DNA from: Musicola paradisiaca NCPPB 2511
GTDB taxonomy: Bacteria; Pseudomonadota; Gammaproteobacteria; Enterobacterales; Enterobacteriaceae
Reading direction: 5' to 3'
Assembly (NCBI RefSeq): GCF_000400505.1
Contig: NZ_CM001857.1
Location: forward strand, 2,470,257-2,534,256
DNA length: 64,000 nt
Positions 2-13,506 of this stretch are shown piece by piece. How positions within the stretch are numbered: the first letter of the stretch is position 1; each line of letters begins with the position of its first letter. The notes beneath the pieces were generated by a model. It was not told the DNA's origin. It was given only the letters and a program-made list of their open reading frames with translations, and made no database searches. The translations under genes and the position numbers were made by a program.

Positions 2-1222
2 ATTCAGGCATTACCGACACAGAAAATACAGGATCAGTTTCAGAAATCTTTTGAAGAATATCAAAAACAGAACGACGCGCTGAATGACAGATCCGTCTCC
101 AGCAGCAGCCAGAATTATGATTACAGCGTTATTATCATTACTGTTTGTGTGATTATTCTCGTCGTCATCGCAACCGGCAGCTGGCGCTATATCCGCCATG
201 TATTATTGAAGCCGCTAAATAAGGTGATCGTGCATCTGAACCATATTTCCCGTGGCGATCTCACCCAATCGCTGGCACTGGCGAACAGCAATGAAATCGG
301 CCAATTAGCCGACAGCGTGCGACATATGCAAACATCGCTGACGGCGACCGTCGATAAAGTACGCACCAGCGCCGACGAGATTTATCGCAGCGCCAGCGAA
401 ATCGCCAACGGCAACAGCGACCTCTCTTCCCGTACCGAGCAGCAATCCGCCTCGCTGGTGGAGACGGCCGCCAGCATGGAACAACTGACCGCCACCGTAA
501 AACAGAATGCGGAGAACGCGCGACATGCCTCCCAACTGGCGCTGAGCGCATCGGAAACCGCGCATAAAGGGCTGAAAATGGTGGATAACGTGATCAACAC
601 CATGGGGCAAATCAGCACCAGCTCCCAGAAAATCAGCGACATCACCGGGCTTATCGACAGCATCGCCTTTCAGACCAACATTCTGGCGCTCAATGCGGCG
701 GTAGAAGCGGCGCGTGCCGGCGAACAAGGGCGCGGGTTCGCGGTGGTCGCCAGCGAAGTCCGCAATCTGGCCACCCGCAGTGCCGATGCCGCCCGCGAAA
801 TCAAAGGATTAATTGAAGATTCCGTCAATCGCGTGCGGGAAGGTCATGAGTTGGTCTCCTCCACCGGAGAGACGATGGGCGAACTGGTTGGCGCCGTCAC
901 CCGCGTGACGGACATCATGGGCGAGATTTCCTCGGCGTCCGAAGAACAGAGCCGCGGCATCGACCAGATCAGCCAGGCGGTCAGCGAGATGGATCGGGTT
1001 ACGCAACAAAACGCCGTGCTGGTGGAAGAGTCGGCTAATGCCGCCGTGTCGCTGGAAGAACAGAGCAACAGCCTTAACCAGTCGGTCGCACTGTTCCAAT
1101 TGTCCGGCATGCCGACAGCCGCCATCGGTGAAAAAACACGCCGACCGGCGCCCAGGATGCTCGCCAACGCCCCGGTTCAGCCCCCCCAGGCATCCCATGA
1201 CACCCATTGGGAAACGTTCTGA
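2..1222 (+). CDS. Methyl-accepting chemotaxis protein, 3' part (5' end outside window)
   Basis: The reading frame is open from base 2 and the start lies before the window. What remains is the end of a periplasmic ligand-binding region, one membrane segment (about 128-178, a run of V/I residues ending in ATGSWRY), a HAMP domain ([14 protein letters not shown]...) and the whole cytoplasmic signalling domain. The conserved hairpin tip ([20 protein letters not shown]) that contacts CheA and CheW is intact. The protein ends in HWETF, the type of C-terminal pentapeptide that tethers the CheR methyltransferase and CheB esterase. This is therefore a high-abundance-type, Tsr/Tar-like transducer of the inner membrane. 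The ligand cannot be told because the sensor domain is missing. Confidence 0.95.
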
Positions 1223-1260
1223 TCGCCCGACGCGCAGGCATCCATGCGCGTCGTTGTACC

Positions 1261-1292
1261 GCCGGGCGCCCCTCCTGCCCGGCGTTGTTTTT
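1261..1292 (+). terminator. Rho-independent terminator of the chemotaxis receptor gene
   Basis: A perfect 7-bp GC stem (GCCGGGC at 1261-1267 with GCCCGGC at 1277-1283) is followed by GTTGTTTTTT. It lies 39 bases after the receptor stop codon. The rest of 1293-1560 shows no convincing gene. Confidence 0.85.
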
Positions 1293-1560
1293 TCCGCACG
1301 TCAGCGGCGCCGGCCTCCCGTCAGAACGCTGCGACGTTGCCGTGATGCCGGCGTCAGAAAGCCGACGCCAGCGCCCGGAGACGGTAGCCTTTGTGTCGTG
1401 TTCCCGAAAATGACATCATGCTCCGAACCGATATTCGTCTATTCGTCGGCATCGGGCGGCGACACGGTGTCGATTTGACGATGCGCCGTTCACTCCGAGT
1501 CGCCATCCCCGATGACGTTGCCAGTATCGCACGGCGCCAGACCGCCTAAGGATCACACCC

Positions 1561-2262
1561 ATGTCACCTATTCCCCCGTTGTCCATTGGACTATTGCTGT
1601 TTCCCCGCTTAACGCAGCTCGACCTGACCGGCCCTTACGAGATATTCGCCCGAATACCGCAGGCGAGCGTGCATCTGATTTGGAAAGATCGTGCGCCGGT
1701 CAGCGCCGATCGCGGGCTGGGTCTGATGCCGTCAACCACCTTCGACGACTGCCCCGACCTTGATCTGATCTGCGTCCCCGGCGGCCCCGGCCAGATTGAT
1801 CTGATGGCGGATGACCAAACGCTGACGTTCCTCCGGCACAAAGCGGCGCAGGCCCGATGGATCACCTCGGTATGCACCGGTTCGCTGGTACTTGGCGCCG
1901 CAGGCCTGCTGCGGGGATACCGGGCCACGTCCCACTGGTCGGCATTGGATCAGCTGGCGTTACTCGGCGCGGAGCCGGTCGCCGAGCGAGTCGTACGGGA
2001 CAGGAACCGCATCACCGGCGCGGGCGTTACCTCCGGCATCGATTTTGCCCTCAGCGTCGTAGCGGATATTTACGGGGCAGAGCTTGCCCAGCGCATCCAG
2101 CTACAAATGGAGTACGATCCACACCCGCCGTTCAATGCCGGTTCGCCTCGCACCGCGCCCGTGGACATCACCCATAGCGTTCAAACGAGTATCGCCGACT
2201 TCACCGCACATCGGCGCCAGATGACGGAACAGGCCGCCGCCCGGCTTGACCTGACGAACTGA
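1561..2262 (+). CDS. DJ-1/PfpI family protein, isonitrile hydratase-like
   Basis: This 233-residue protein has the DJ-1/PfpI fold. An early acidic position lies in DLTGPYEIF (about residues 21-29), and the nucleophile elbow SVCTGSLVLGAAGLL carries Cys105, followed by the ATSHW motif. Order and length fit the isonitrile hydratase (InhA) branch of the superfamily, which hydrates R-NC to N-substituted formamides. The same branch also contains AraC-like GATase1 relatives with other or unknown activities, so the substrate is an inference. There is no signal peptide, so the protein is probably cytoplasmic. It appears to be a single gene, with a terminator directly behind it and a terminator in front. 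Confidence 0.85.
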   Translation: MSPIPPLSIGLLLFPRLTQLDLTGPYEIFARIPQASVHLIWKDRAPVSADRGLGLMPSTTFDDCPDLDLICVPGGPGQIDLMADDQTLTFLRHKAAQARWITSVCTGSLVLGAAGLLRGYRATSHWSALDQLALLGAEPVAERVVRDRNRITGAGVTSGIDFALSVVADIYGAELAQRIQLQMEYDPHPPFNAGSPRTAPVDITHSVQTSIADFTAHRRQMTEQAAARLDLTN

Positions 2263-2270
2263 ACCGCGCA

Positions 2271-2300
2271 CCGGGCGGCCCCACCGCCCGGCCTTTCGTT
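2271..2300 (+). terminator. Likely terminator after the DJ-1/PfpI gene
   Basis: An 8-bp stem CCGGGCGG (2271-2278) / CCGCCCGG (2284-2291) with a 5-base loop is followed by CCTTTCGTT. The T-run is short, so termination strength is uncertain. Confidence 0.6.
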
Positions 2301-2606
2301 ATCACCGCCCAGACGGTTTCGCCTGCACGCCGCTCGCGTCATCCTCATCGCCCGCCGCGTGGCCCATCGTCCACCATTCGACCGATACCCTACTGTTTTT
2401 GAAGAAAAAAGCAGCGTATTGAGCGTGACTCGCGCTCACCCACGCCGTCCGTTGTTTGCTGGATAACAAACCAACCGCCATCGCGCCCCCGCCCGGCAGC
2501 GAACTGATTTAATGCAGGTCTGTGCACAGCCCAACAATATGCGGCGCAATTCTCGTGCGGATATCGCTGTGCCAACACCGCAACCTTCTCACTACCGGAC
2601 CCAACC
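2301..2606. other. Intergenic stretch before the lysis cassette
   Basis: About 300 bases with no gene I can support. It must hold the promoter of the lysis genes. I see no clear sigma-70 consensus, phage repressor operator or attachment site in it. Confidence 0.5.
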
Positions 2607-2921
2607 ATGAACGAAACAGACAAAAACCTCATTTCCCTGTTCATCATCGGCATGTTGATTGCCGTCGGCAAAGTGCTGGCAGGCAGCGAGCCCATCACAC
2701 TACGGCTGTTCGTCGGCCGGGTATTGCTGGGCGGCTTTGTCTCGATGATGGCCGGGATCGCGCTGGTGCAGTTTCCCGACCTGTCGCCCGTGGCGATTAA
2801 CGGTATCGGCGCTGCGCTGGGCATCGCCGGCTACCAAACCATCGAACTGATCATCCAGCGCCGCATCCGGCAACTGAATGAAAAAAACGCCAACCAGGAG
2901 GACAAACACGATGAGCAATAA
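2607..2921 (+). CDS. Phage-type holin
   Basis: This is a 104-residue protein with up to three hydrophobic segments (about residues 8-27, 34-57 and 63-80) and a strongly charged C-terminal tail (RRIRQLNEKNANQEDKHDEQ). This is the typical build of a two/three-helix holin, which forms inner-membrane lesions that release the endolysin to the periplasm. The assignment rests on size, topology and position. The gene overlaps the endolysin start by 11 bases, and the spanin genes follow. The ribosome binding site in front of the ATG is weak. No antiholin was recognised. Its codon use and GC content resemble the host, so the cassette is probably an old, domesticated acquisition. Confidence 0.85.
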   Translation: MNETDKNLISLFIIGMLIAVGKVLAGSEPITLRLFVGRVLLGGFVSMMAGIALVQFPDLSPVAINGIGAALGIAGYQTIELIIQRRIRQLNEKNANQEDKHDEQ

Positions 2922-3402
2922 TAGCCCCAACATCACCGCCTTCCTCGACATGCTGGCATTTTCCGAAGGCACCGCCACACACCCGTTGACGCAAAACCGC
3001 GGCTATGACGTGATCGTCACCGGCATTGACGGCAAGCCGGAAATTTTTACCGACTATCACGACCATCCCTTCGCCGACGGACGCCCCGCCAAGGTCTTCA
3101 ACCGTCAGGGGCAGCGCTCCACCGCCGCCGGCCGCTACCAGCAGCTCTATCGCTACTGGCCCGCTTACAAGAACCGACTCCGGCTGCCGGATTTCAGCCC
3201 CGCCTCGCAGGACACCCTGGCGATCCAACTCATCCGCGAACAAAAAGCGCTGGACGCCGTGATTGCCGGCCGCATCGCCTGTGCCATCGGCCTGTGCAAC
3301 AACATCTGGGCATCGTTGCCGGGCGCGGGTTACGGGCAGCGGGAGCACAACCTCGACCGGCTGCTGACCTGTTATCAACAATCCGGCGGGAGGCTGGCAT
3401 GA
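2911..3402 (+). CDS. Lambda R-like endolysin (lytic transglycosylase)
   Basis: This 163-residue protein resembles the lambda R endolysin along its length: AFLDMLAFSEGT near the N-terminus with the catalytic Glu at position 19, then GYDVIV, FTDYHDHPF, STAAGRYQ, FSPASQD, and NNIWASLPGAGYGQ near the C-terminus. Lambda R cleaves the MurNAc-GlcNAc bond and leaves an anhydro end. There is no signal peptide, so export should depend on the upstream holin. The start at 2911 is chosen because AGGAGG ends about 8 bases before it. An in-frame ATG at 2878 has no such site and would overlap the holin gene more. The stop overlaps the Rz start as ATGA. Confidence 0.93.
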   Translation: MSNNSPNITAFLDMLAFSEGTATHPLTQNRGYDVIVTGIDGKPEIFTDYHDHPFADGRPAKVFNRQGQRSTAAGRYQQLYRYWPAYKNRLRLPDFSPASQDTLAIQLIREQKALDAVIAGRIACAIGLCNNIWASLPGAGYGQREHNLDRLLTCYQQSGGRLA

Positions 3403-3848
3403 AAGATTGGTTGATTGCCGCCGCAGCGGCGCTGACGTTGTTTTCCGGTATCGCCCTGCAATCCTGGCGGCTGCACAATGCACGGCTGCTCAACGAACAG
3501 CAGGCGCAAACGCTGGCACTGCAACAAACCACACTGGACGAAACATCCCGTCAACTCACCACACTGGCCGTTCAGGCCGAACAGACCAACAACGAGCAAG
3601 CGCGACTGCGCGAACGGGCGGCCGATACCCAGGCCGCGCTCTCCGAACGTCAAAAAACCATTGCGAGGTTACAACATGAGAACGATGCACTTAAACGCTG
3701 GGCTGATACCGCTCTGCCTGCTGATATTATCCGGTTGCGCCAGCGCCCCGTCCTCACCGGCGGTCACGCTTACCGTGAATGGCTGTCCCAGACTAATGCC
3801 CTGTCGCTTTCCGGCGGCCAGCCCACAGACCAACGGCGATCTGAATAG
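3399..3848 (+). CDS. Rz-like inner-membrane spanin
   Basis: This 149-residue protein has one N-terminal membrane segment (about residues 4-22) and a long predicted coiled coil rich in Q, L, E and R (about 25-95). This is the build of an i-spanin, which spans the periplasm and, with its lipoprotein partner, disrupts the outer membrane in the last step of lysis. The ATG overlaps the endolysin stop (ATGA), implying translational coupling. A second gene, the outer-membrane partner, starts inside it in the +1 frame at 3676. Sequence similarity in spanins is low in general, so the call rests on topology and the nested arrangement. Confidence 0.88.
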   Translation: MKDWLIAAAAALTLFSGIALQSWRLHNARLLNEQQAQTLALQQTTLDETSRQLTTLAVQAEQTNNEQARLRERAADTQAALSERQKTIARLQHENDALKRWADTALPADIIRLRQRPVLTGGHAYREWLSQTNALSLSGGQPTDQRRSE

Positions 3849-3960
3849 CCAACTGGACGACACCGAGGCCGCGCTGGCCGACTGCGCCGATCAGGTGGAC
3901 AGCATCATCGCCTGCCAGCAACAGGCCAGCGCCGCCGCCCTTCCCGCCCGGCACATCTGA
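3676..3960 (+). CDS. Rz1-like outer-membrane spanin lipoprotein, overlapping Rz
   Basis: This 94-residue lipoprotein precursor starts inside the Rz gene in another frame and runs 112 bases past its end. The signal peptide ends in a lipobox LSGC, with the lipidated Cys at position 21. The mature part begins ASAPSSP and is rich in A, Q and D with several Cys residues. A GAGGT sequence lies upstream of the ATG. It is longer than lambda Rz1 (60 residues) and more like o-spanins of P2-like phages. Its partner is the Rz-like protein. Together they link inner and outer membranes. Confidence 0.85.
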   Translation: MRTMHLNAGLIPLCLLILSGCASAPSSPAVTLTVNGCPRLMPCRFPAASPQTNGDLNSQLDDTEAALADCADQVDSIIACQQQASAAALPARHI

Positions 3961-4190
3961 GCGTCTCATCGGGCGCCGCTGAGCGTCCCGCCCGGCACCG
4001 CAGACTTACCCTGCCATACCTGTCATACCTGCCATGACCGCCGCCCGGCGGTCATGCTTGTTACTGGCCCCTCAGACGCCGCTGGCGCGAGCGATAGGGC
4101 AACGTATCCCGCCGGAAATCTCCCTCTGCGCTTCCCCGGTGCAACCACGCTTAACTGGGTGGCCAGCGCCGCCCGGCGGCCTTTTCACTC

Positions 4191-4664
4191 TCACGCGGCA
4201 TAGCGCGCCTGCGGTTCGCAGGACACCGGGAAGTTCACCGAATTGGCGATAAAACAGAGATGGTGCGCCTGCTCATGCAGCGTCAACGCCAGCGCCAAAT
4301 CGTCGCCATCACGCACGGTCACTACCGGCCGTAATGTCACGCCGGAAAAATAACCGCCGCGCGCCGCGTCCTCCTGCATGACGCCCAGCGCCTCATCCTC
4401 ATAGGCGAGCACCGAAATGCCGGAGGTGGCGCACAGGTGGAGATACCAGAGTTTATGGCAGGCGCTTAACGAAGCCACCAGCAGATCCTCCGGGTTCCAG
4501 CGCCCGGCATCGCCGCGAAACGCCGGATCTGCCGAACCGGGAATATCCGGTTTGCCCGGTACGCTGATTCGGTGCTGACGACCGTAAGCCCGATAGTCCT
4601 CCGTACCGGCGCCCACATTCCCTTCCCACGTTACCTTGACCGCATAGCGATGTTCACCCTTCAT
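4191..4664 (-). CDS. OsmC family peroxiredoxin-like protein
   Basis: This 157-residue protein has the two conserved cysteines of the OsmC/Ohr superfamily: Cys69 in LSACHKLWYLH and Cys137 in HLCFIANSVNFPV. In characterised members these thiols reduce organic hydroperoxides. The GDAGRWNPEDLLVASLSAC context is typical of the OsmC-like rather than the Ohr branch. The start at 4664 is preceded by AAGGAA at suitable distance. Upstream in-frame starts run into the divergent gene. It is transcribed away from the DUF1800 operon with about 225 bases between the two starts. The substrate is unknown. Confidence 0.9.
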   Translation of the reverse strand: MKGEHRYAVKVTWEGNVGAGTEDYRAYGRQHRISVPGKPDIPGSADPAFRGDAGRWNPEDLLVASLSACHKLWYLHLCATSGISVLAYEDEALGVMQEDAARGGYFSGVTLRPVVTVRDGDDLALALTLHEQAHHLCFIANSVNFPVSCEPQARYAA

Positions 4665-4888
4665 GCCCGTTCCTTCTTCGTTGACAACCAGAGCCGTCAT
4701 GGTGTCCCGGAACGGCGGACATGGCAATCTGCACGCGCGGTTTTCTGGTAGCGCTTCGCAATACGCAACGAAGGAACCGTTCCCCAGAGAGGAACGGTTC
4801 CCCATTGTCGGCCCCGACGAACACATGGATGCTTCCCTCGCTTACGGTTCGAACCCCCCCTTCCCCTGGCATAAAAGGAATCCGCGAT

Positions 4889-6775
4889 ATGGCTTTGGTA
4901 CCCTGGTGGGCGTTGCTGCGCACTTTCCATCTTGCGGCGCCGGCCGCGCTGTTGCTGTCGAGCGCCGCTCAGGCGCTGACACCGGACGACGCCGCGCATT
5001 TGCTCGGACGCACCAGCTTCGGCGCCGACACGCAGGAGATGGCCGCTTACCTGCCGCTGACCCGCGAACAGGCGGTAGAGCGTCTACTCGATTCGCTCAC
5101 CGCGCCTCCCTATTTGCAGCCGCCGCGTTTCGTTTCTCAACCGCGACCCAATTACTGGGGCCATAACTGGGAAAGCAACGAGGTTATTTTTTACCGCATC
5201 AATGAAATTCAGCAGTTACAGAGCGGGTGGATGCAGGAAATGATCGAAACCCCAACGCCGTTTGCCGATCGGCTGGCGTTGTTCTGGCACGGCCATTTCG
5301 TCTCCCGCTTTCAAAACACCCGCATTTCCGCGCCCTTCTACGATCAACTACAGGTATTTCGCCAGTGGGGCGGTCGCAATTTTCGCGAGCTACTGCGGGC
5401 AATCTTGCGGGATCCGATGATGTTGAGCGGCCTGGACAATGTCCAAAATACGCGCTCGCACCCTAACGAAAACCTGGCCAGAGAGCTGATGGAACTGTTC
5501 ACGTTGGGCGTGGGAAACTACACCGAGCAGGATGTTAAAACGGTAGCCCGGCTGCTGGCCGGCCATTCCGTGGAGAGAGAAAACGGCTGGCGTTACCGGC
5601 TGAACGAGGCCGACGCCGACAGCGGAGAAAAAACCATTCTGGGCCGGACTCTCGCCGCCGGCAAAACCGACGCCATCGACGATCTGGTGGATATTTTGCT
5701 GGCACAACCGCAAACGGCGGAATTCATCGCCAAAAAATTCTTCCTCGACTTCGTCGCGCCACAGCCCGACCCGCAAGAGATCACCCGTCTGGCGGCCATC
5801 CTGCGTGATAGCGACTATGATCTGACGGTGTTCCTGCGTGCGCTCTTGTCCAGCGACGCATTCTGGCGGCCCCAGAACCGTCTCAGCCTGATCAAATCGC
5901 CGCTGGAGCTGATCGTCGGTTTCGCCCGCACCACCCAGCTACGGATGCCGGACTACAAAATTCTGGTGGATTATGCCGACATGCTCGGCCAGAGCGCCTT
6001 CATGGCGCCGGATGTCTCCGGCTGGAAAGGCGGCAACCATTGGCTTTCCATCAGCAGCCTGGTCAACCGTGCGCGTGTTATGCGCCGCCTCTGGGTGGCG
6101 GTGGCGCAATCACGCCAATACCCGCCCGACGTCACAGCCGGGCTCCGTCTGCGTTTCAGTTCGGAGTACCGCGCCACGCCGGCACGTTTCACCGTCAACA
6201 TGGATGGCGTCCCCGTCGGCACCATTACCGCCGCCGCCGGGCTCCGCACTCTGGAGGATGAGAAAGCCTCGAACGAATCCGGCGCGTTGAAGCCTATGTG
6301 GGAAAACGCCGTCATCCCGTTGCCCGCGTTACCCGCCAATCCACGTAGCATGACGATTGAATTTATTCCGCCGGATACGGACACTCACCTGTTCATTAAT
6401 TGGATCGCGTTAAACGGCCGACGCTACTCGCCCATGAATGCTCGCTGGGTGGGTGCAGAGCGCGGCCGATGCCCGACCGACGTACCGCGGGGCGCATTTT
6501 ATTGCCCGGCAAAATTACAGTTCGACCTGACGCCCATCGATAACGATCAGGCGACGCTGGCCGATCTGCACGCACCGCTCAACGCCAACATCGAGTACGG
6601 CACCGCCCACCTGCAACTGACGCCGACGACCGGCGACCGGCCGCATGGCCTGCCAGCACGCGCGTCGGACACCACACCGGCGCCGGTGCTGATACAGACG
6701 GCGCAGGACATTGACCGGCTCCGCGAAGAGGCCTTTCGCGCCTACACCTTCGATCCTGCTTATCACCTCAAATAG
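4889..6775 (+). CDS. DUF1800 family secreted protein
   Basis: This 628-residue protein has a Sec-type signal peptide (about residues 1-30, ending SSAAQA). Family hallmarks are present: DDAAHLLGRTSFGA near the mature N-terminus, RLALFWHGHFVS, NENLARELMELFTLGVGNYTEQDV, and the SGWKGGNHWLS block. DUF1800 proteins have no established biochemical role. They are commonly encoded next to a Tat-exported DUF1501 protein, as here. The start at 4889 has AGGAA about 9 bases upstream. An earlier ATG at 4721 would add 56 residues with no family similarity and would spoil the signal peptide. It is the first gene of an operon that continues at 6791 and 8036. Confidence 0.92.
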   Translation: MALVPWWALLRTFHLAAPAALLLSSAAQALTPDDAAHLLGRTSFGADTQEMAAYLPLTREQAVERLLDSLTAPPYLQPPRFVSQPRPNYWGHNWESNEVIFYRINEIQQLQSGWMQEMIETPTPFADRLALFWHGHFVSRFQNTRISAPFYDQLQVFRQWGGRNFRELLRAILRDPMMLSGLDNVQNTRSHPNENLARELMELFTLGVGNYTEQDVKTVARLLAGHSVERENGWRYRLNEADADSGEKTILGRTLAAGKTDAIDDLVDILLAQPQTAEFIAKKFFLDFVAPQPDPQEITRLAAILRDSDYDLTVFLRALLSSDAFWRPQNRLSLIKSPLELIVGFARTTQLRMPDYKILVDYADMLGQSAFMAPDVSGWKGGNHWLSISSLVNRARVMRRLWVAVAQSRQYPPDVTAGLRLRFSSEYRATPARFTVNMDGVPVGTITAAAGLRTLEDEKASNESGALKPMWENAVIPLPALPANPRSMTIEFIPPDTDTHLFINWIALNGRRYSPMNARWVGAERGRCPTDVPRGAFYCPAKLQFDLTPIDNDQATLADLHAPLNANIEYGTAHLQLTPTTGDRPHGLPARASDTTPAPVLIQTAQDIDRLREEAFRAYTFDPAYHLK

Positions 6776-6790
6776 CCACCGGAGAACGTT

Positions 6791-8008
6791 ATGCGCTCAT
6801 CCTATCGATACTCACGCCGGGAATTACTGAAATTATTCGGCGGCGTCTCGCTGCTTTCGTTACTGCCGGGGGCATTGCAGGCCAACGCGCCACAGGACAT
6901 CAGCCAGCGCATTGGCGCCCGTCGGCTGATTATCGTCGAACTGTTCGGCGGCAACGATGCCCTCAATACCTTGATTCCCTACCGGGATCCGCTGTATGCA
7001 CACTATCGGCCTACCCTGTCGCTTCCGGTGCGTGACGTCATTCCCCTCAATGATGAGCTGGCCTTGCACCCCGCGCTGAAAACATTGAACGGCCTTTTTC
7101 AGTCGGGCGAGATGGCGATCGTTCAGGAGGTCGGCTACCCCAATAACAGCCTGTCGCACTTTGATTCGACCACGATCTGGGGTACGGCGATCACCGACGC
7201 CGCCGTGCGATCCGGTTGGGTTGGTCGGGTGGTGCGGGACAATCCGCGCTGGGCGGAAAAAAACGACGCCGACGGCATCATCCTTTCCGGTTCGAACATT
7301 TTTATGGATGAAAAAGGCGTCAGGCCGCTGGAAATTCAAGATGCCAAAGCGCTGTTGCGCCCCGCTTACGGCGAGCTGAATACCGACCATCTGGCCGTCA
7401 ATCCGTCAACGGAATATCTTTCCAACCTACTGAAAAATCACCGTCTTATCTCCGATCGCATCCGCCAAAAACTCAAAGGCGACAATAGCTTTGAGCGCCT
7501 GTTCAAATACCCGGGCCAAAGCTACCTCGAACCGCTTTACGTGCAGGCGGCGCAACTGCTGTGGTTGATCGACAGCGGCGTTGAAACGCCGGTATTTAAA
7601 ATCGGCCTGTCCGGCTTCGACCTGCACACCCAACTTGCGCAGCAGCACGGGCCATTGCTGGCTAGCGTCGAGCGCGTATTGCTGGGGCTGCGTCAGGGAT
7701 TGAAAGCGATGGGCGTCTGGGACAACACGCTGATCCTGGTGCAATCCGAATTCGGCCGTCGACCGGCGGAAAATGCGTCCGGCGGGACTGATCACGGATC
7801 CAGCGGCGTCGTGCTGCTGCTGGGCGGTTCGCTGGAGGGAGGACTGTACGGCACCCGTAGCGGTCTGGAGACGCTGGACGGCGTGGGCAATCCGTATTTC
7901 ACCACCGATTTTCGCACGATCTACTCCAGCATCGTCTCCCGGTTCTGGCGACTACCGGAAAACCCGCTGGCGGCGGAAGGGTTCCCCCCGATGGCGTTCC
8001 GGTTATAA
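6791..8008 (+). CDS. DUF1501 family protein, Tat-exported
   Basis: This 405-residue protein begins with a twin-arginine signal: SRRELLKLF at residues 8-16, a hydrophobic stretch, then ALQANA. It should therefore fold, perhaps around a cofactor or metal, before export to the periplasm. DUF1501 belongs to the alkaline-phosphatase/sulfatase-like superfamily. The blocks IIVELFGGNDALNTLIPY, GYPNNSLSHFDSTTIW, GFDLHTQLAQQHG and QSEFGRRPAENASGGTDHGSSGV fit that, with the Asp and His residues suggesting metal binding. It starts 16 bases after the DUF1800 stop, behind GGAGAACGTT, and is followed 27 bases later by the glycosyltransferase gene. Function is unknown. Confidence 0.92.
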   Translation: MRSSYRYSRRELLKLFGGVSLLSLLPGALQANAPQDISQRIGARRLIIVELFGGNDALNTLIPYRDPLYAHYRPTLSLPVRDVIPLNDELALHPALKTLNGLFQSGEMAIVQEVGYPNNSLSHFDSTTIWGTAITDAAVRSGWVGRVVRDNPRWAEKNDADGIILSGSNIFMDEKGVRPLEIQDAKALLRPAYGELNTDHLAVNPSTEYLSNLLKNHRLISDRIRQKLKGDNSFERLFKYPGQSYLEPLYVQAAQLLWLIDSGVETPVFKIGLSGFDLHTQLAQQHGPLLASVERVLLGLRQGLKAMGVWDNTLILVQSEFGRRPAENASGGTDHGSSGVVLLLGGSLEGGLYGTRSGLETLDGVGNPYFTTDFRTIYSSIVSRFWRLPENPLAAEGFPPMAFRL

Positions 8009-8035
8009 CTCTCTGACAAATTGGAGCTCGTGCTT

Positions 8036-9922
8036 ATGAGACACACACCCCCCGCAAGCCGGGAATATACGCCTCCCGTGCCGGTGCCTTACCCCGGACG
8101 AACAGCCACCTGCATCAGGCAAAATATGTGGCTATCCGGCCCGGAATTGCCGCTCCGCAGCCACGTTACCGCCTGCATTACGCTGTACAACGAACCCCTG
8201 CGGGTTTTATTGCCGACGCTCATCTCGCTTATCGAAAACCATCATCACATGAAAACACGCCGGCCGGCCGGGGAACCGTTGGTGTCGTGCCTCCTGATTG
8301 ATGGCGAGGCGCATCTTCACCCGGAGGTTAGGGCGCTGCTGCTTGCGCTGGGTTGGACGCCGTCTTTTCCTGCGGCCCCGTCGGACGACAACAGCGTCCA
8401 TATTCAGCACCTCTCCCTGTCTCTGGATACGCTCCATACGGCGCTGAATCTCCCCGCCGACGGCGATGCGCGCCCGATGCCCCTGCTGATTGCCGCCAAA
8501 CAACACAACCGCGGCAAGTTGGATTCGCACGCCTGGTTTTTCCGCCATATCTGCCGCCTTATTACGCCGGACTATATTTTGCAGATCGACGCCGGTTCCA
8601 TTCCTGCTGCGAATTGTCTGCCGCTATTACTGGATCACATGGCGCTGCGCCCCGACTGCGGCGCGCTGGCGGCCAGAATCGTTACACGCCCGCCGTCGGG
8701 GCTCAACCCGGTAACGAACTGGCAATATGGCGATTTTATCTGGGAAAAAATAACCGACTGGCCGGTCAGCAACTTGCTGCGCTATATGGAAGTGGTGCCG
8801 GGCCAGTGCAGCCTGATTCGTTATTCCACGTTCTGCTCTTCCCACGACGCCGTGGCAACGCCCATGCATCGCTATTTACGCGGTCTGGCTGCGCAAGGGT
8901 TGCTCGAACGCAATCAGTTTTTGGCCGAAGACCGGGTGCTGGGGTTTGAAATCGTTAACGCGCCACACCATCAGGCCACCACCGAATATGAGCCCAACGC
9001 CGTACTGGAAACCGATCCCTGCCCGACGTTCGCCGAACTGGTACGTCAACGTCGCCGCTGGATCAACAGCACGTTAGCCGTCAGGATCGCTACGCTATCG
9101 GCGCTGCCGGCGCTACTCCGGCATGCAGCGCTCTCGCCAATGCGTAAGCTGGAAATCCTGCTGTCGATGCTGTGGAATTACAGCCAGTTGTTGACGCTGT
9201 TTGTTTTCCCCGCGTTGATGGCGGTTATCTGCTCGTTGACCGTTAACCGCCTGGTACCGGCATCCATGAATGGCTTGCCCGCATCGCAGCCGCTGGGTTC
9301 TTTCGCCGCCGGCGGATTTATTCTGTTCTGGGCCGGCATCCTGCTGTGCAGCCGAATTTACAGTGTGAGCAGCCCGTGGGGATTACGCCTGCACCGACTC
9401 CTGGCTTCACTGTTGGCGGTGACAATCAATCTGCTGTTAGTCACCGGCCCGGTGCTTCAGCTTTTTTGGCATTATCCCGGCGGGTCGTTATCGCTGCTGG
9501 CGCTTGTATTACTGGCCGTTGCGCTGCATTCGCCCGATCATTTTCATAATCTCTGGCGATTTATCCTGCTCTATTTCCCGCTGTTTACCTCTTTCAGTTT
9601 TTATCTCACCAGCTATGCGCTGGCCAATTTCAGCGATACCAGTTGGGGAACGAAGGGGCTTTTGCATGGCAAAACCACGCGGCGCTGGTCAATGATTCGT
9701 GATGGTATGCTGATTTTCTGGGTTGTCGCCGCCAGCATCATGGCTGCCTGGGTCATTGCGCTGGGCGAACAAGCCGCCGTGGCGGTCATTACCGGGATGG
9801 TTATTTTTACGCTGGCGCGTTATGTCGTGGCTATCTTGTGCAGCGTTTCCGCGCTGTTCCGCAAGCCGATCACGTTCGCGGAACGTTTCCCCTGGCGTCA
9901 CCGTCTCGACGGTGAACTCTAA
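8036..9922 (+). CDS. Membrane glycosyltransferase family 2, chitin-synthase-like
   Basis: This 628-residue protein has a GT2 catalytic domain (about residues 45-360): TACITLYNE at the start of the fold, an Asp-containing ILQIDAGS, the acidic AEDR motif (about residue 300) and QRRRWINST starting at residue 338. The QxxRW signature marks processive synthases, and the extended QRRRWINST form is the signature seen in chitin synthases. About seven membrane segments follow from residue 370 to the end. It therefore probably polymerises a UDP-sugar and extrudes the chain through the inner membrane. Product identity is an inference. GGAG lies 9 bases before the ATG. It is the third gene of the DUF1800-DUF1501 operon. 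Confidence 0.88.
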   Translation: MRHTPPASREYTPPVPVPYPGRTATCIRQNMWLSGPELPLRSHVTACITLYNEPLRVLLPTLISLIENHHHMKTRRPAGEPLVSCLLIDGEAHLHPEVRALLLALGWTPSFPAAPSDDNSVHIQHLSLSLDTLHTALNLPADGDARPMPLLIAAKQHNRGKLDSHAWFFRHICRLITPDYILQIDAGSIPAANCLPLLLDHMALRPDCGALAARIVTRPPSGLNPVTNWQYGDFIWEKITDWPVSNLLRYMEVVPGQCSLIRYSTFCSSHDAVATPMHRYLRGLAAQGLLERNQFLAEDRVLGFEIVNAPHHQATTEYEPNAVLETDPCPTFAELVRQRRRWINSTLAVRIATLSALPALLRHAALSPMRKLEILLSMLWNYSQLLTLFVFPALMAVICSLTVNRLVPASMNGLPASQPLGSFAAGGFILFWAGILLCSRIYSVSSPWGLRLHRLLASLLAVTINLLLVTGPVLQLFWHYPGGSLSLLALVLLAVALHSPDHFHNLWRFILLYFPLFTSFSFYLTSYALANFSDTSWGTKGLLHGKTTRRWSMIRDGMLIFWVVAASIMAAWVIALGEQAAVAVITGMVIFTLARYVVAILCSVSALFRKPITFAERFPWRHRLDGEL

Positions 9923-10062
9923 GGAGGTCTCACCATTACGCCCGCTTCGGATATCGGAAACCGTTGCCGGGGCGGGTCATACGCTCAGCAGCTGGCGCGG
10001 GCGCCATTCGCCCGCCCCGCATAAAGTCCCTCCCGGCAGGCGTTATTGGCGCGACGCGGCGG

Positions 10063-10521
10063 TTACAGGCCGTCCATCCGCAGCATTTTGCGCAATGAAC
10101 GCGCGGTGACACCAAAATCCCGCGCGATCTGATGCATCCCGATGCCCTGAGCCAGCACGGATTTGACGGCGACTTTCCTTAACCCCAGGAATATCCCCCA
10201 TGCGGAAGGGATATCCAATACGCCGCTCGGCGCCGTATTGCGGGTAAAGGTCGCGTAGGTTTTTTCAGAAATGGCGATCCCGGTTTTTTCTATAAACCGA
10301 ATGCGATCCTTATTCAGGTATAGGCGACTGCCGCCATGAAGACGAACAAATTCCGACATACAATCGAAACCGTCATTCTCAATCAGTTCGGAAATCATCC
10401 AGGGCAATGTGGAGAGAATACTGACTTTGTGGTGGTCATAAAATTTTTCTAATTCTTTGAAATTTGGTTCATCAGCATGAGGAAGCCCAGAGAATATCTT
10501 TTTCAGCGAATAATAATCCAT
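10063..10521 (-). CDS. Uncharacterised protein with C-terminal helix-turn-helix
   Basis: I do not recognise this 152-residue protein. Its last third (IGMHQIARDFGVTARSLRKML) reads as a helix-turn-helix, similar in style to Mor/resolvase-type DNA-binding helices, so a DNA-binding regulator is possible. The N-terminal two thirds are mixed alpha/beta with no motif I know. The start at 10521 is preceded by AAGGAAAT at good spacing; the ATG at 10539 is not. It stands alone at the border of an AT-rich patch and may be horizontally acquired. Confidence 0.7.
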   Translation of the reverse strand: MDYYSLKKIFSGLPHADEPNFKELEKFYDHHKVSILSTLPWMISELIENDGFDCMSEFVRLHGGSRLYLNKDRIRFIEKTGIAISEKTYATFTRNTAPSGVLDIPSAWGIFLGLRKVAVKSVLAQGIGMHQIARDFGVTARSLRKMLRMDGL

Positions 10522-10607
10522 GTTATTTCCTTCATCCATGAATGGTATTGTCGTTATTCCGACGGACAGTTATTCCAGACGATGACAATTAACGATAAAT
10601 ATTGATC

Positions 10608-10802
10608 TATACCTAAAATAATTCGAGTTGCAGGACAACACGCTCGCGTGTTGAACAACGCCACGCGTTGGCCCTTTAGGGCAAGGCTCGTAAGAGCCTT
10701 GTAACGCGGCAAGAGAGCGAATCCCGATGCGCTTACTCAGGTAAGTGATTCGGGTGAGCAAACGCCGCCAACACACCGGCAACGTGAAGTATGACGGGTA
10801 TA
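10608..10802. repeat. Intergenic repeat element, copy 1 (long form)
   Basis: The element begins TATACCTAAAATAATTCGAG and ends GAAGTATGACGGGTATA. It contains the internal block GAGAGCGAATCCCGATG...AGTGATTCGGGTGAGC. The ends are imperfect inverted repeats. It is about 195 bp, and compared with the 127-bp copy at 16337-16463 it carries an extra block near the left end with its own short inverted repeats. Elements of this look are scattered in Pectobacteriaceae and related genera. An open frame across 10570-10782 is a by-product of the element. Confidence 0.8.
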
Positions 10803-11211
10803 ATGAATAATTAGCATGATATTAAATATATCCTCTTAAAGTAATATCACTGAATAATCAAAAAATCACAACGCCGTACCTATTTATGCAATCCATCAAT
10901 GCTATTGACCCGATAATATATCCGACATTTCAGATTGATAACGCCTCATACTCGATCTGGCCGACATGACGATGATGTTAACGCCTGCCCCATCGGATTG
11001 TTTTGCTCATCATGTTATTCACGGGGTTCACGTTGCTAATACGCGGATGTTACTCAGGCGTCCCTGTCGCTTATCGCCGTAAGCAACAGGGATTCGGCGT
11101 CATTGCCTGCAACTCGCATTATCCATGACATAGCAGGCGAATAACGATCACTGTCATCATTACTCCGTGCAGATTTACCGTGCCAGGTGCGGGATAACAG
11201 GGGTATCGGTA
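10803..11211. other. AT-rich intergenic stretch
   Basis: About 400 bases after the repeat element with no coding potential that I can defend on either strand. No tRNA or clear terminator is seen. Confidence 0.5.
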
Positions 11212-11514
11212 TCACTGCGGTGCGGCGTTATTTTGCTGGCGCCATCGGGTTACGCGCTCTTTTGTCACTTCATTTTTATAACACGTCGGCGCGGCGCCAC
11301 CTTTGCGGCTCCAGGCGCTGCGACCGCCGCAGGTGCTGCCGTTCCTGGCTGAATTATACGGGCAGGCGCATGTGCCGGAATACCCGGCTATCGATTCATC
11401 GATTATTTTTTGTTTAACCTGATCATCACTGAGTCGCATATTTCGCGCCTCAGCCTGATTCAGGAAAAGAAAAGCAGTCACCGCAAACATTATCGTGAGC
11501 ATAATTCGTCTCAT
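11212..11514 (-). CDS. Small secreted cysteine-containing protein
   Basis: This 100-residue protein has a clear signal peptide (MRRIMLTIMFAVTAFLFLNQAEA). The mature part has the block GTCACPYNSARNGSTCGGRSAWS followed by APTCY, with four Cys residues that could form two disulfides in the periplasm. I recall this Cys-Pro-Tyr-Asn / Cys-Gly-x-Arg-Ser pattern from small hypothetical proteins of many proteobacteria and their plasmids or phages, but no function is known to me. GGATGA lies just upstream of the start. It stands alone in an AT-rich patch. Confidence 0.8.
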   Translation of the reverse strand: MRRIMLTIMFAVTAFLFLNQAEARNMRLSDDQVKQKIIDESIAGYSGTCACPYNSARNGSTCGGRSAWSRKGGAAPTCYKNEVTKERVTRWRQQNNAAPQ

Positions 11515-11860
11515 TTCATCCTCCAGAAGAAAATAGTATTAGCCTGTACGGCAAAATAATTGCCATTATATTAAAAGTAATAATACCGACCACCTGCCGT
11601 GATATTTCTCAAAAAACAATCAATAGTCAGGCATGATTAATAAGTATTGATAAGGCGAATAGCAATTCGAATATTTACACGAACAAGAGTGATGACAAGC
11701 ATTCCGCCGTCACCGAAGGCGATGTTGATTGCGTCTCAAGGGGTATAGTTAATACGTTAAAAAGAAACCGCTGACATTCTGTTTGATTTAACGCCAACGA
11801 CAATCAGGCCGCGCCGAAACCTGTTGATGACCACGCCCACAAGGCGGTTGAGTGGGCCAT
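11515..11860. other. AT-rich intergenic stretch
   Basis: About 350 bases between the small secreted protein and the ydcH terminator. I see no gene, RNA or repeat in it. Confidence 0.5.
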
Positions 11861-11895
11861 AAAAAACCGCCGCAGGCTGGGCAACGCGGCGGTTT
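11861..11895 (-). terminator. Rho-independent terminator of ydcH
   Basis: Read on the minus strand, a stem CCGCCGC / GCGGCGG with a 12-base loop is followed by TTTTTT. It starts about 30 bases after the ydcH stop codon. Confidence 0.85.
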
Positions 11896-11925
11896 CATTA
11901 TCAATAAACCCAAAAGCCAACAAAA

Positions 11926-12153
11926 TCAGGCCGTAGGATGAACACTTTCCTCCTGCAAGATCTTGTAAATTTCATCTTTCAGATGCAGCTTCTCTTTTTT
12001 GAGCCTGACGACTTCATCGCCGTACCCCTGACGGTTAGCCCCTTCAAGCCGGGCGATATCATGGTCAAGCTGGTTATGTTGTTCAAACAACAGCATAAAG
12101 CGGGGGTGCTCGAGTTTAAGACGAGAGATCAACTCGCGATATTCTGGAAACAT
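11926..12153 (-). CDS. ydcH: YdcH family protein (DUF465)
   Basis: This 75-residue, highly charged, helical protein (MFPEYRELISRLKLEHPRFMLLFEQHNQLDHDIARLEG...) matches the YdcH/DUF465 family in size and in the HPRF...LFxxHNxLDxxI pattern with a following coiled coil. The molecular role is unknown; it is a small cytoplasmic protein. AGAGGACG lies 6 bases before the ATG and a strong terminator follows, so it is a monocistronic gene. Confidence 0.9.
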   Translation of the reverse strand: MFPEYRELISRLKLEHPRFMLLFEQHNQLDHDIARLEGANRQGYGDEVVRLKKEKLHLKDEIYKILQEESVHPTA

Positions 12154-12582
12154 GAAACGTCCTCTGGTTAGTCATGGTTAACCGCAAACGTGTTGCCTAC
12201 CGCGTTGACATCAACAAGCAACAGAATAAAGCCTAGTCGATTCCTCCCGGAAAAAATGTGTACCCCGCCCTATTTGGGAGTATTCCACCCAGCGCCACTC
12301 CAGCGAACAGCCGCGATACGCGCCACCCAACGCGCTGCAGAGCCAATGTAAATTTCACGTAATCGCCCGCTCCGGACTTATCGCCGAATACGCATTTTGT
12401 GCTATCGTGCGCACGGAAAATCAAAGCACGTTGGATTCATTCAGCACATCCCAATCCCTCTTTCTTAATTCTCCACATTGCACCATGGAATCTTATGCGA
12501 CAGGCATACTCTAACACCCAACATAACTCACCATGCTGTATAGCTTTTCATGTCATACCTCATTGATGATACAAGGAATACC
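12154..12582. other. Intergenic region between ydcH and lpxP
   Basis: About 430 bases between divergent genes. It must carry both promoters. In E. coli lpxP is RpoE-dependent and cold-induced, but I could not identify a convincing sigma-E element by eye. No gene is supported. Confidence 0.5.
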
Positions 12583-13506
12583 ATGAACAAAGCGGTTCGT
12601 TTTTCAGGCGCTTTCTTCCACCCCCGTTACTGGCTGCTCTGGTGCGGGCTTATCGTTCTGTTTCTGCTGGTTCAGCTTCCTTACCCCTGGTTGGTGCGCG
12701 TGGGTAAATATTCCGGAAAAGCGGCACGCCCCTTGCTGAAAAGGCGGGAACGCATCGCCAGGCGGAATATCGATCTGTGTTTCCCAACCTATTCCGACGC
12801 CGCAAAGGAAAAACTGATCGATGAAAATTTCGTTTCTCTCGGCATGGCGCTGGTGGAGACAGGCATGGCCTGGTTCTGGCCGGATCGCCGCATCCGTCGT
12901 TGGTTCGATGTGCAGGGTTACGGCAACCTGTGTGACGCGCAGCAGAATAAGCGCGGTGTGATGGTCGTCGGCGTGCATTTTATGTCGCTGGATCTCGGCG
13001 GCCGGGTGATGGGGCTGTGTCAACCCATGATGGCCATGTACCGCCCGCACAATAACCCGTTGTTGGAATGGGTGCAGACACGCGGCCGGATGCGTTCGAA
13101 TAAAGCGATGATTGACCGACGCAATCTGAAAGAAATGGTCAACGCCCTCAAACAGGGCGAAGCAGTCTGGTTTGCGCCCGATCAGGACTATGGCCCTAAA
13201 GGCAGCACCTTCGCGCCGTTTTTCGCCGTCAACAGCGTAGCCACCACCAACGGCACCTATGTGCTCTCCCGGCTCTCGAATGCCGCCATTTTGACCATCA
13301 CGCTGATTCGAAAATCGGACAACAGCGGCTATCGGCTATTCATCGAACCGGAACTGATGGATTATCCCAAGAATGACGAATCCGCCGCCGCGGCGTATAT
13401 AAATCGAGTGATTGAAAAAGAAATCCTGCGCGCACCGGCGCAATACCTGTGGATTCACCGGCGTTTTAAAACCCGGCCGGTGGGCGAAAAATCGCTGTAT
13501 GCATAA
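12583..13506 (+). CDS. lpxP: Kdo2-lipid IVA palmitoleoyltransferase LpxP
   Basis: This 307-residue acyltransferase of the LpxL/LpxM/LpxP family adds the secondary acyl chain to the 2' position of lipid A at the inner membrane. The catalytic HxxxxD motif is His132-Asp137 in GVHFMSLDLGG. One membrane anchor lies at about residues 19-37. The blocks CQPMMAMYRPHNNPLLEWVQTRGRMRSNKAM and the C-terminus IHRRFKTRPVGEKSLYA are closer to E. coli LpxP (cold-induced, palmitoleate) than to LpxL (laurate). AAGGAA precedes the ATG at 12583, and the upstream ATG at 12550 has no such site. Nearby cspA gives another cold-associated gene. Confidence 0.9.
   Translation: MNKAVRFSGAFFHPRYWLLWCGLIVLFLLVQLPYPWLVRVGKYSGKAARPLLKRRERIARRNIDLCFPTYSDAAKEKLIDENFVSLGMALVETGMAWFWPDRRIRRWFDVQGYGNLCDAQQNKRGVMVVGVHFMSLDLGGRVMGLCQPMMAMYRPHNNPLLEWVQTRGRMRSNKAMIDRRNLKEMVNALKQGEAVWFAPDQDYGPKGSTFAPFFAVNSVATTNGTYVLSRLSNAAILTITLIRKSDNSGYRLFIEPELMDYPKNDESAAAAYINRVIEKEILRAPAQYLWIHRRFKTRPVGEKSLYA

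Follow-up and report, generated by a model that had tools for sequence, protein, structure and literature searches.

The window analysed here is a 64,000-nucleotide stretch of the Musicola paradisiaca NCPPB 2511 genome. Open reading frames and Pfam matches placed three co-directional + strand genes at positions 4889-9922, encoding a DUF1800 protein, a DUF1501 protein and a chitin synthase-type glycosyltransferase (CHS), with intergenic gaps of 15 and 27 bases respectively. The initial annotation had reported a DUF1800, a DUF1501 and a glycosyltransferase gene at this position, and matches to PF08811, PF07394 and PF01644 agreed with both the gene content and the coordinates. The DUF1800 gene (4889..6775, +; 628 aa) begins at ATG 4889 with AGGA upstream and was found in the same position in 13 other genomes. 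Its product matched PF08811 at E 6e-94 and carries a Sec-like signal peptide (residues 1-28), a core domain predicted to be all-helical (residues 30-404; 4976..6100, +) and a C-terminal beta domain predicted to be CBM60-like (residues 417-575; 6137..6613, +). The DUF1501 gene (6791..8008, +; 405 aa) starts at ATG 6791, preceded by GGAG, and its product matched PF07394 at E 9e-28 and bears a Tat-type signal with RR at residues 9-10. Export of both DUF proteins, as had been suggested, is thus predicted from their signals. The glycosyltransferase gene (8036..9922, +) encodes a 628-aa GT2 protein in which an N-terminal catalytic domain is followed by membrane segments, the hydrophobic stretches running from residue 381 onward. 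A start at TTG 8021 was dropped for this gene in favour of ATG 8036, the best choice, which has GGAG upstream. The Pfam scan placed an OsmC gene (4191-4826) and a lipid-A acyltransferase gene (12550-13506) on the flanks of the trio.

Goncalves et al. (PMC5122149) described bacterial chitin synthase (chs) genes in 2016, among them those of Dickeya, Pectobacterium, Brenneria and Agrobacterium vitis and more distant ones in Teredinibacter, Cellvibrio and Pseudomonas cichorii. In that paper, DUF1800 and DUF1501 are reported to share the chs operon, OsmC and the lipid-A acyltransferase are listed among its neighbours, the Tat signal on DUF1501 is recognised and a common function is hypothesised for the three proteins. 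Both the gene order and the proposal that the three genes act together are therefore already known, and the window holds the same three genes with the same two neighbours. Compared with the sections consulted of that study, the extra DUF1800 domain and the DUF1501 fold described below are additional, as is a second, unlinked DUF pair in the window's genome. A 2019 study of Dickeya fangzhongdai (PMC6329079) gave DUF1501 and glycosyltransferase genes as species-specific. The prediction that bacteria synthesise chitin dates from 2016; in the literature searched we found neither a reported product nor experimental follow-up, and such studies may exist elsewhere.

The product of the third gene scored 68.2 bits with Chitin_synth_1 (PF01644; E 1e-18), for which the cut-off is 25, and its six PDB matches at E <= 1e-3 were all eukaryotic chitin synthases of oomycete or fungal origin (E 6e-29 to 6e-26). 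The PgaC and NodC models scored it at 16-20 bits, far under their cut-offs, so that it stands nearer to chitin synthases than to other processive GT2 enzymes. The motifs listed for PsChs1 (PMC9556331) were present in conserved or near-conserved form as TLYNE, DG, KLDSH, DAGS, QYGDF, VVPG, EDR, QRRRW and SWG, with DAGS and QYGDF here corresponding to DVGT and QHFEY in PsChs1. Alignment to PsChs1 further showed the D,D,D,Q(Q/R)XRW signature and SWG to be complete, comprising D89, D185, D299, QRRRW at residues 338-342 and SWG at residues 536-538. The EDR catalytic motif (residues 298-300) is encoded at 8927..8935 (+), and QRRRW, an acceptor-site signature of processive beta-glycosyltransferases, at 9047..9061 (+). 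On this sequence evidence the third gene is a division-1-type chitin synthase homologue with intact catalytic motifs, and synthesis of a beta-1,4-GlcNAc chain from UDP-GlcNAc is predicted for its product. The earlier description of a processive glycosyltransferase or polysaccharide synthase was therefore right as to a membrane glycosyltransferase and can be made more exact. Like the eukaryotic division-1 enzymes (PsChs1, fungal Chs), the protein belongs to the GT2 fold family and has the catalytic motifs, a membrane part and SWG, but it is distant from them in sequence, lacks Chitin_synth_1N and is encoded in a bacterial operon. Unlike synthase-dependent secretion systems of the Bcs and Pga type, the operon and its flanks contain no outer-membrane channel/TPR gene and no c-di-GMP (PilZ) partner gene in the region scanned (149-13506).

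Such a short synthase, devoid of an N-terminal regulatory domain, could also belong to an operon that makes and releases short soluble chitooligosaccharides as plant-surface signals or decoys, with DUF1501 and DUF1800 engaged in release or trimming and no anchored polymer. The hosts are plant-associated, and a soluble chitooligosaccharide product is suggested in PMC5122149, which also notes a chitoporin gene beside another chs. The window operon, however, has no chitoporin, and its CHS resembles polymer-forming synthases in retaining SWG and an extensive membrane part. Moreover, the NodC model scored CHS at 16.1 bits against a cut-off of 550, and we regard this alternative as somewhat unlikely.

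The identity of the sugar bears on another alternative. Most Pectobacterium genomes encode a CHS with a DegT/DnrJ aminotransferase (E 7e-82) fused to it, and a gene for a GalE-like epimerase follows. Such donor chemistry is in keeping with the proposed glycan operon, and it also means that the sugar may differ from plain GlcNAc in some genomes. This arrangement, which looks as if the donor were modified on site, and the DAGS/QYGDF departures from PsChs1 would both suit a glycan other than chitin, namely another HexNAc or modified amino-sugar polymer acted upon by DUF1501. Against such a product, the core donor-site motifs are kept and the fusion is absent from the CHS of the window, of Dickeya, of Rhizobium and of two Pectobacterium genomes; we judge it unlikely.

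Homologues of CHS were sought in genome contigs, where a single-sequence query found none and an alignment of four sequences did find them. The initial annotation had proposed a search for the three-gene arrangement in other genomes, and this search tied the glycosyltransferase to the DUF pair throughout, the opposite of the rare linkage that it had named as part of a refutation: in 14 out of 14 genomes with readable flanks, the chitin synthase gene lay directly 3′ of DUF1800-DUF1501, on the same strand and in the same order. These genomes represent the window's genus, Pectobacterium, Dickeya, Rhizobium skierniewicense and Allorhizobium taibaishanense, and as the order recurs across two classes the arrangement is not due to chance. 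The count covers one branch of bacterial CHS, and since the chs of Teredinibacter, Cellvibrio and Pseudomonas cichorii fall outside it and may lack the pair, the 14/14 figure applies to that one branch only. Chitin synthase is rare, occurring in 5 of 392 family-sample genomes and 2 of 398 phylum-sample genomes; it was present in 8 of the 25 Pectobacterium-genus and 3 of the 9 Dickeya-genus genomes, and the plasmid and phage collections yielded no relatives.

The DUF pair, on the other hand, is common and usually comes without chitin synthase: of 299 phylum genomes, 67 have DUF1800 and 71 have DUF1501, and about one in five of the sampled Pseudomonadota genomes holds the pair. The genome of the window itself contains a second DUF1800-DUF1501 pair (C1:3982232-3985000; L014 7227-9659) with neither a glycosyltransferase nor a CBM60-like domain, and the DUF1800 of this pair groups with ordinary DUF1800s in the tree. 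A pair so widespread beside so rare a synthase, together with a second pair that has no glycosyltransferase, means that a glycan role can be claimed for one clade only. The proposal that both families are glycan-related in general was consequently abandoned, as most pairs lack such a glycosyltransferase.

Within that clade the three proteins appear to have been inherited together. Their pairwise distances over 13 genomes correlate at r 0.98-0.99, values inflated by shared ancestry, and the chs-linked DUF1800s form one clade, as do the linked DUF1501s (support 99); the DUF1800 tree was built on the core domain only, with the extra-domain columns left out. Between the window and other genera the DUF proteins are 45-61% identical and CHS 33-47%, and this better conservation of the DUFs indicates that they are under selection and are not passengers. 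The DUF1800 of the window is as far from that of Rhizobium as from that of Pectobacterium (48-50% identity), which makes horizontal transfer clear. Transfer of this kind, the usual occurrence of the DUF pair without CHS and the phage-type genes on either side of the operon could all be accommodated if the pair were unrelated to the CHS product and the three genes had merely co-travelled on mobile DNA. We nevertheless find this highly improbable, given an order that stayed fixed in 14 genomes after deep divergence, DUF proteins that are better conserved than CHS and a DUF1800 domain restricted to the chs-linked clade.

This domain consists of about 155 extra residues (417-575), which in every chs-linked DUF1800 lie between the core and a conserved DPAYNLK-type tail. 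An HMM built for it matched every linked DUF1800 at 1e-69 to 1e-81 and 0 of 30 unlinked ones, and a profile search of 239 genomes was positive only in the two with chitin synthase, the other 237 being without it. The restriction of the domain to the chitin-synthase-linked DUF1800 clade, in the sample examined, is new here. A Pfam scan of the C-terminal domain returned no convincing family, and PDB sequence searches with DUF1800 and DUF1501 gave no significant match. A resemblance to CBM60/CBM36 had been proposed from the sequence pattern before any structure was considered, and the fold match was found afterwards: Foldseek ranked the CBM60 structures 2xfd and 2xhh first and second of about 350,000 PDB chains (probability 1.00, E 1.5e-3), with target TM-scores of 0.72 and 0.65, respectively. 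The AlphaFold model of DUF1800 has a mean pLDDT of 64.5, with many strands of the extra domain at about 75-87.

CBM60 modules bind sugars via calcium, and 2XFD has been described with cellobiose (PMC4444583). In its predicted beta-sandwich fold the extra domain resembles vCBM60 (2xfd/2xhh), but it differs in lacking a Pfam-level sequence match and in being part of a DUF1800 protein rather than a xylanase. None of five members matched the CBM60 Pfam model (PF16841) at E <= 10, hhalign against CBM60 was weak (probability 20% and 1%), and the calcium-ligand pattern ND..D..DY aligned only loosely with PPDTDTHLFINW. Membership of the CBM60 family was dropped on the absence of a PF16841 match and the hhalign value of 20%; because support at the sequence level is weak, we describe the domain as CBM60-like in predicted fold, on a model of moderate confidence.

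The DUF1501 protein carries the N-terminal sequence SRRELLK, whose Tat-type twin arginine was invariant in 10 of 10 homologues. Invariant residues D56, S122-H123, D277-x-H279, E320 and D334-H335 would suit a metal site. The top 50 Foldseek matches all belonged to the alkaline-phosphatase superfamily and included LtaS, YejM, EptC and carbohydrate sulfatases; with a best E of 1.3e-3 and a model pLDDT of only 52.9, the predicted fold weakly resembles that of the alkaline-phosphatase/sulfatase superfamily. BcsG is an enzyme that modifies a synthase product, cellulose. By analogy, DUF1501 may plausibly act as a periplasmic phospho- or sulfo-group enzyme on the glycan. With BcsG-, EptC- and LtaS-type enzymes it would share a superfamily-level fold and a periplasmic location, but it is predicted to be a soluble Tat substrate and not a membrane protein.

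We propose that the locus is a horizontally spread bacterial chitin-synthase operon in which DUF1800 holds the chain and DUF1501 trims or decorates it, a model whose biochemical steps we infer and which we give roughly an even chance of being correct. Judging by homology, CHS would sit at the inner membrane, build a beta-1,4 chain from UDP-GlcNAc or a close HexNAc donor and pass it to the periplasm. The Sec-exported DUF1800 protein would use its CBM60-like module to hold the nascent chain, as the predicted fold and the clade restriction suggest. The Tat-exported DUF1501 protein, putatively metal-dependent and alkaline-phosphatase-superfamily-like, might trim or decorate this chain with a phospho- or sulfo-group in the manner of EptC/LtaS/BcsG-type enzymes, and the result would be an amino-glycan that is either released in soluble form or displayed on the surface. 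The original suggestion that the DUF pair processes or anchors a surface glycan is thus supported in part, for the chs-linked clade, where the 14/14 linkage, the correlated distances and the CBM60-like module point in its favour. Elsewhere the pair mostly acts without CHS, and its basic activity may therefore be unrelated to glycans. A bolder proposal, which we hold to be possible though short of probable, is that this DUF1800 clade became a dedicated chitin-chain-handling partner through the gained CBM60-like module and forms, with DUF1501, a three-gene chitin or amino-glycan system without known counterpart. The extra domain, a single soluble unit of ~155 residues, offers a testable handle on the operon product and could assign a function to a DUF1800 protein for the first time. 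Soft-rot and crown-gall relatives carry these genes, and chitin-like oligomers act as plant immune signals in that setting.

Several minor observations were also made. The closest unlinked DUF1800 relative (L093 7475-10182, genome G561) is paired with DUF1501 and has no extra domain and no glycosyltransferase evident in an 18-kb stretch; it possibly represents a pre-recruitment form. A Hyphomicrobiales MAG (L020 134-2245) encodes a more distant chitin-synthase-like glycosyltransferase (34% identity); its gene lies at a contig edge and was excluded from the 14/14 count. The CHS of P. zantedeschiae and of the Pectobacterium-genus genome G818 (L015/L088, L090) lack the aminotransferase fusion seen in six further Pectobacterium-genus genomes. 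Just 5′ of the OsmC gene, at 2607-3960, lies a phage-type lysis cassette made of a holin (phrog_175/PF04550), an endolysin (phrog_90) and an Rz-like spanin (phrog_89). A 158-aa protein encoded at 10063-10539 (-) resembles a phage late transcription activator (phrog_836, E 6e-8), and a phrog_836-like gene was also found 3′ of the chs operon in the Dickeya-genus loci L013 and L017.
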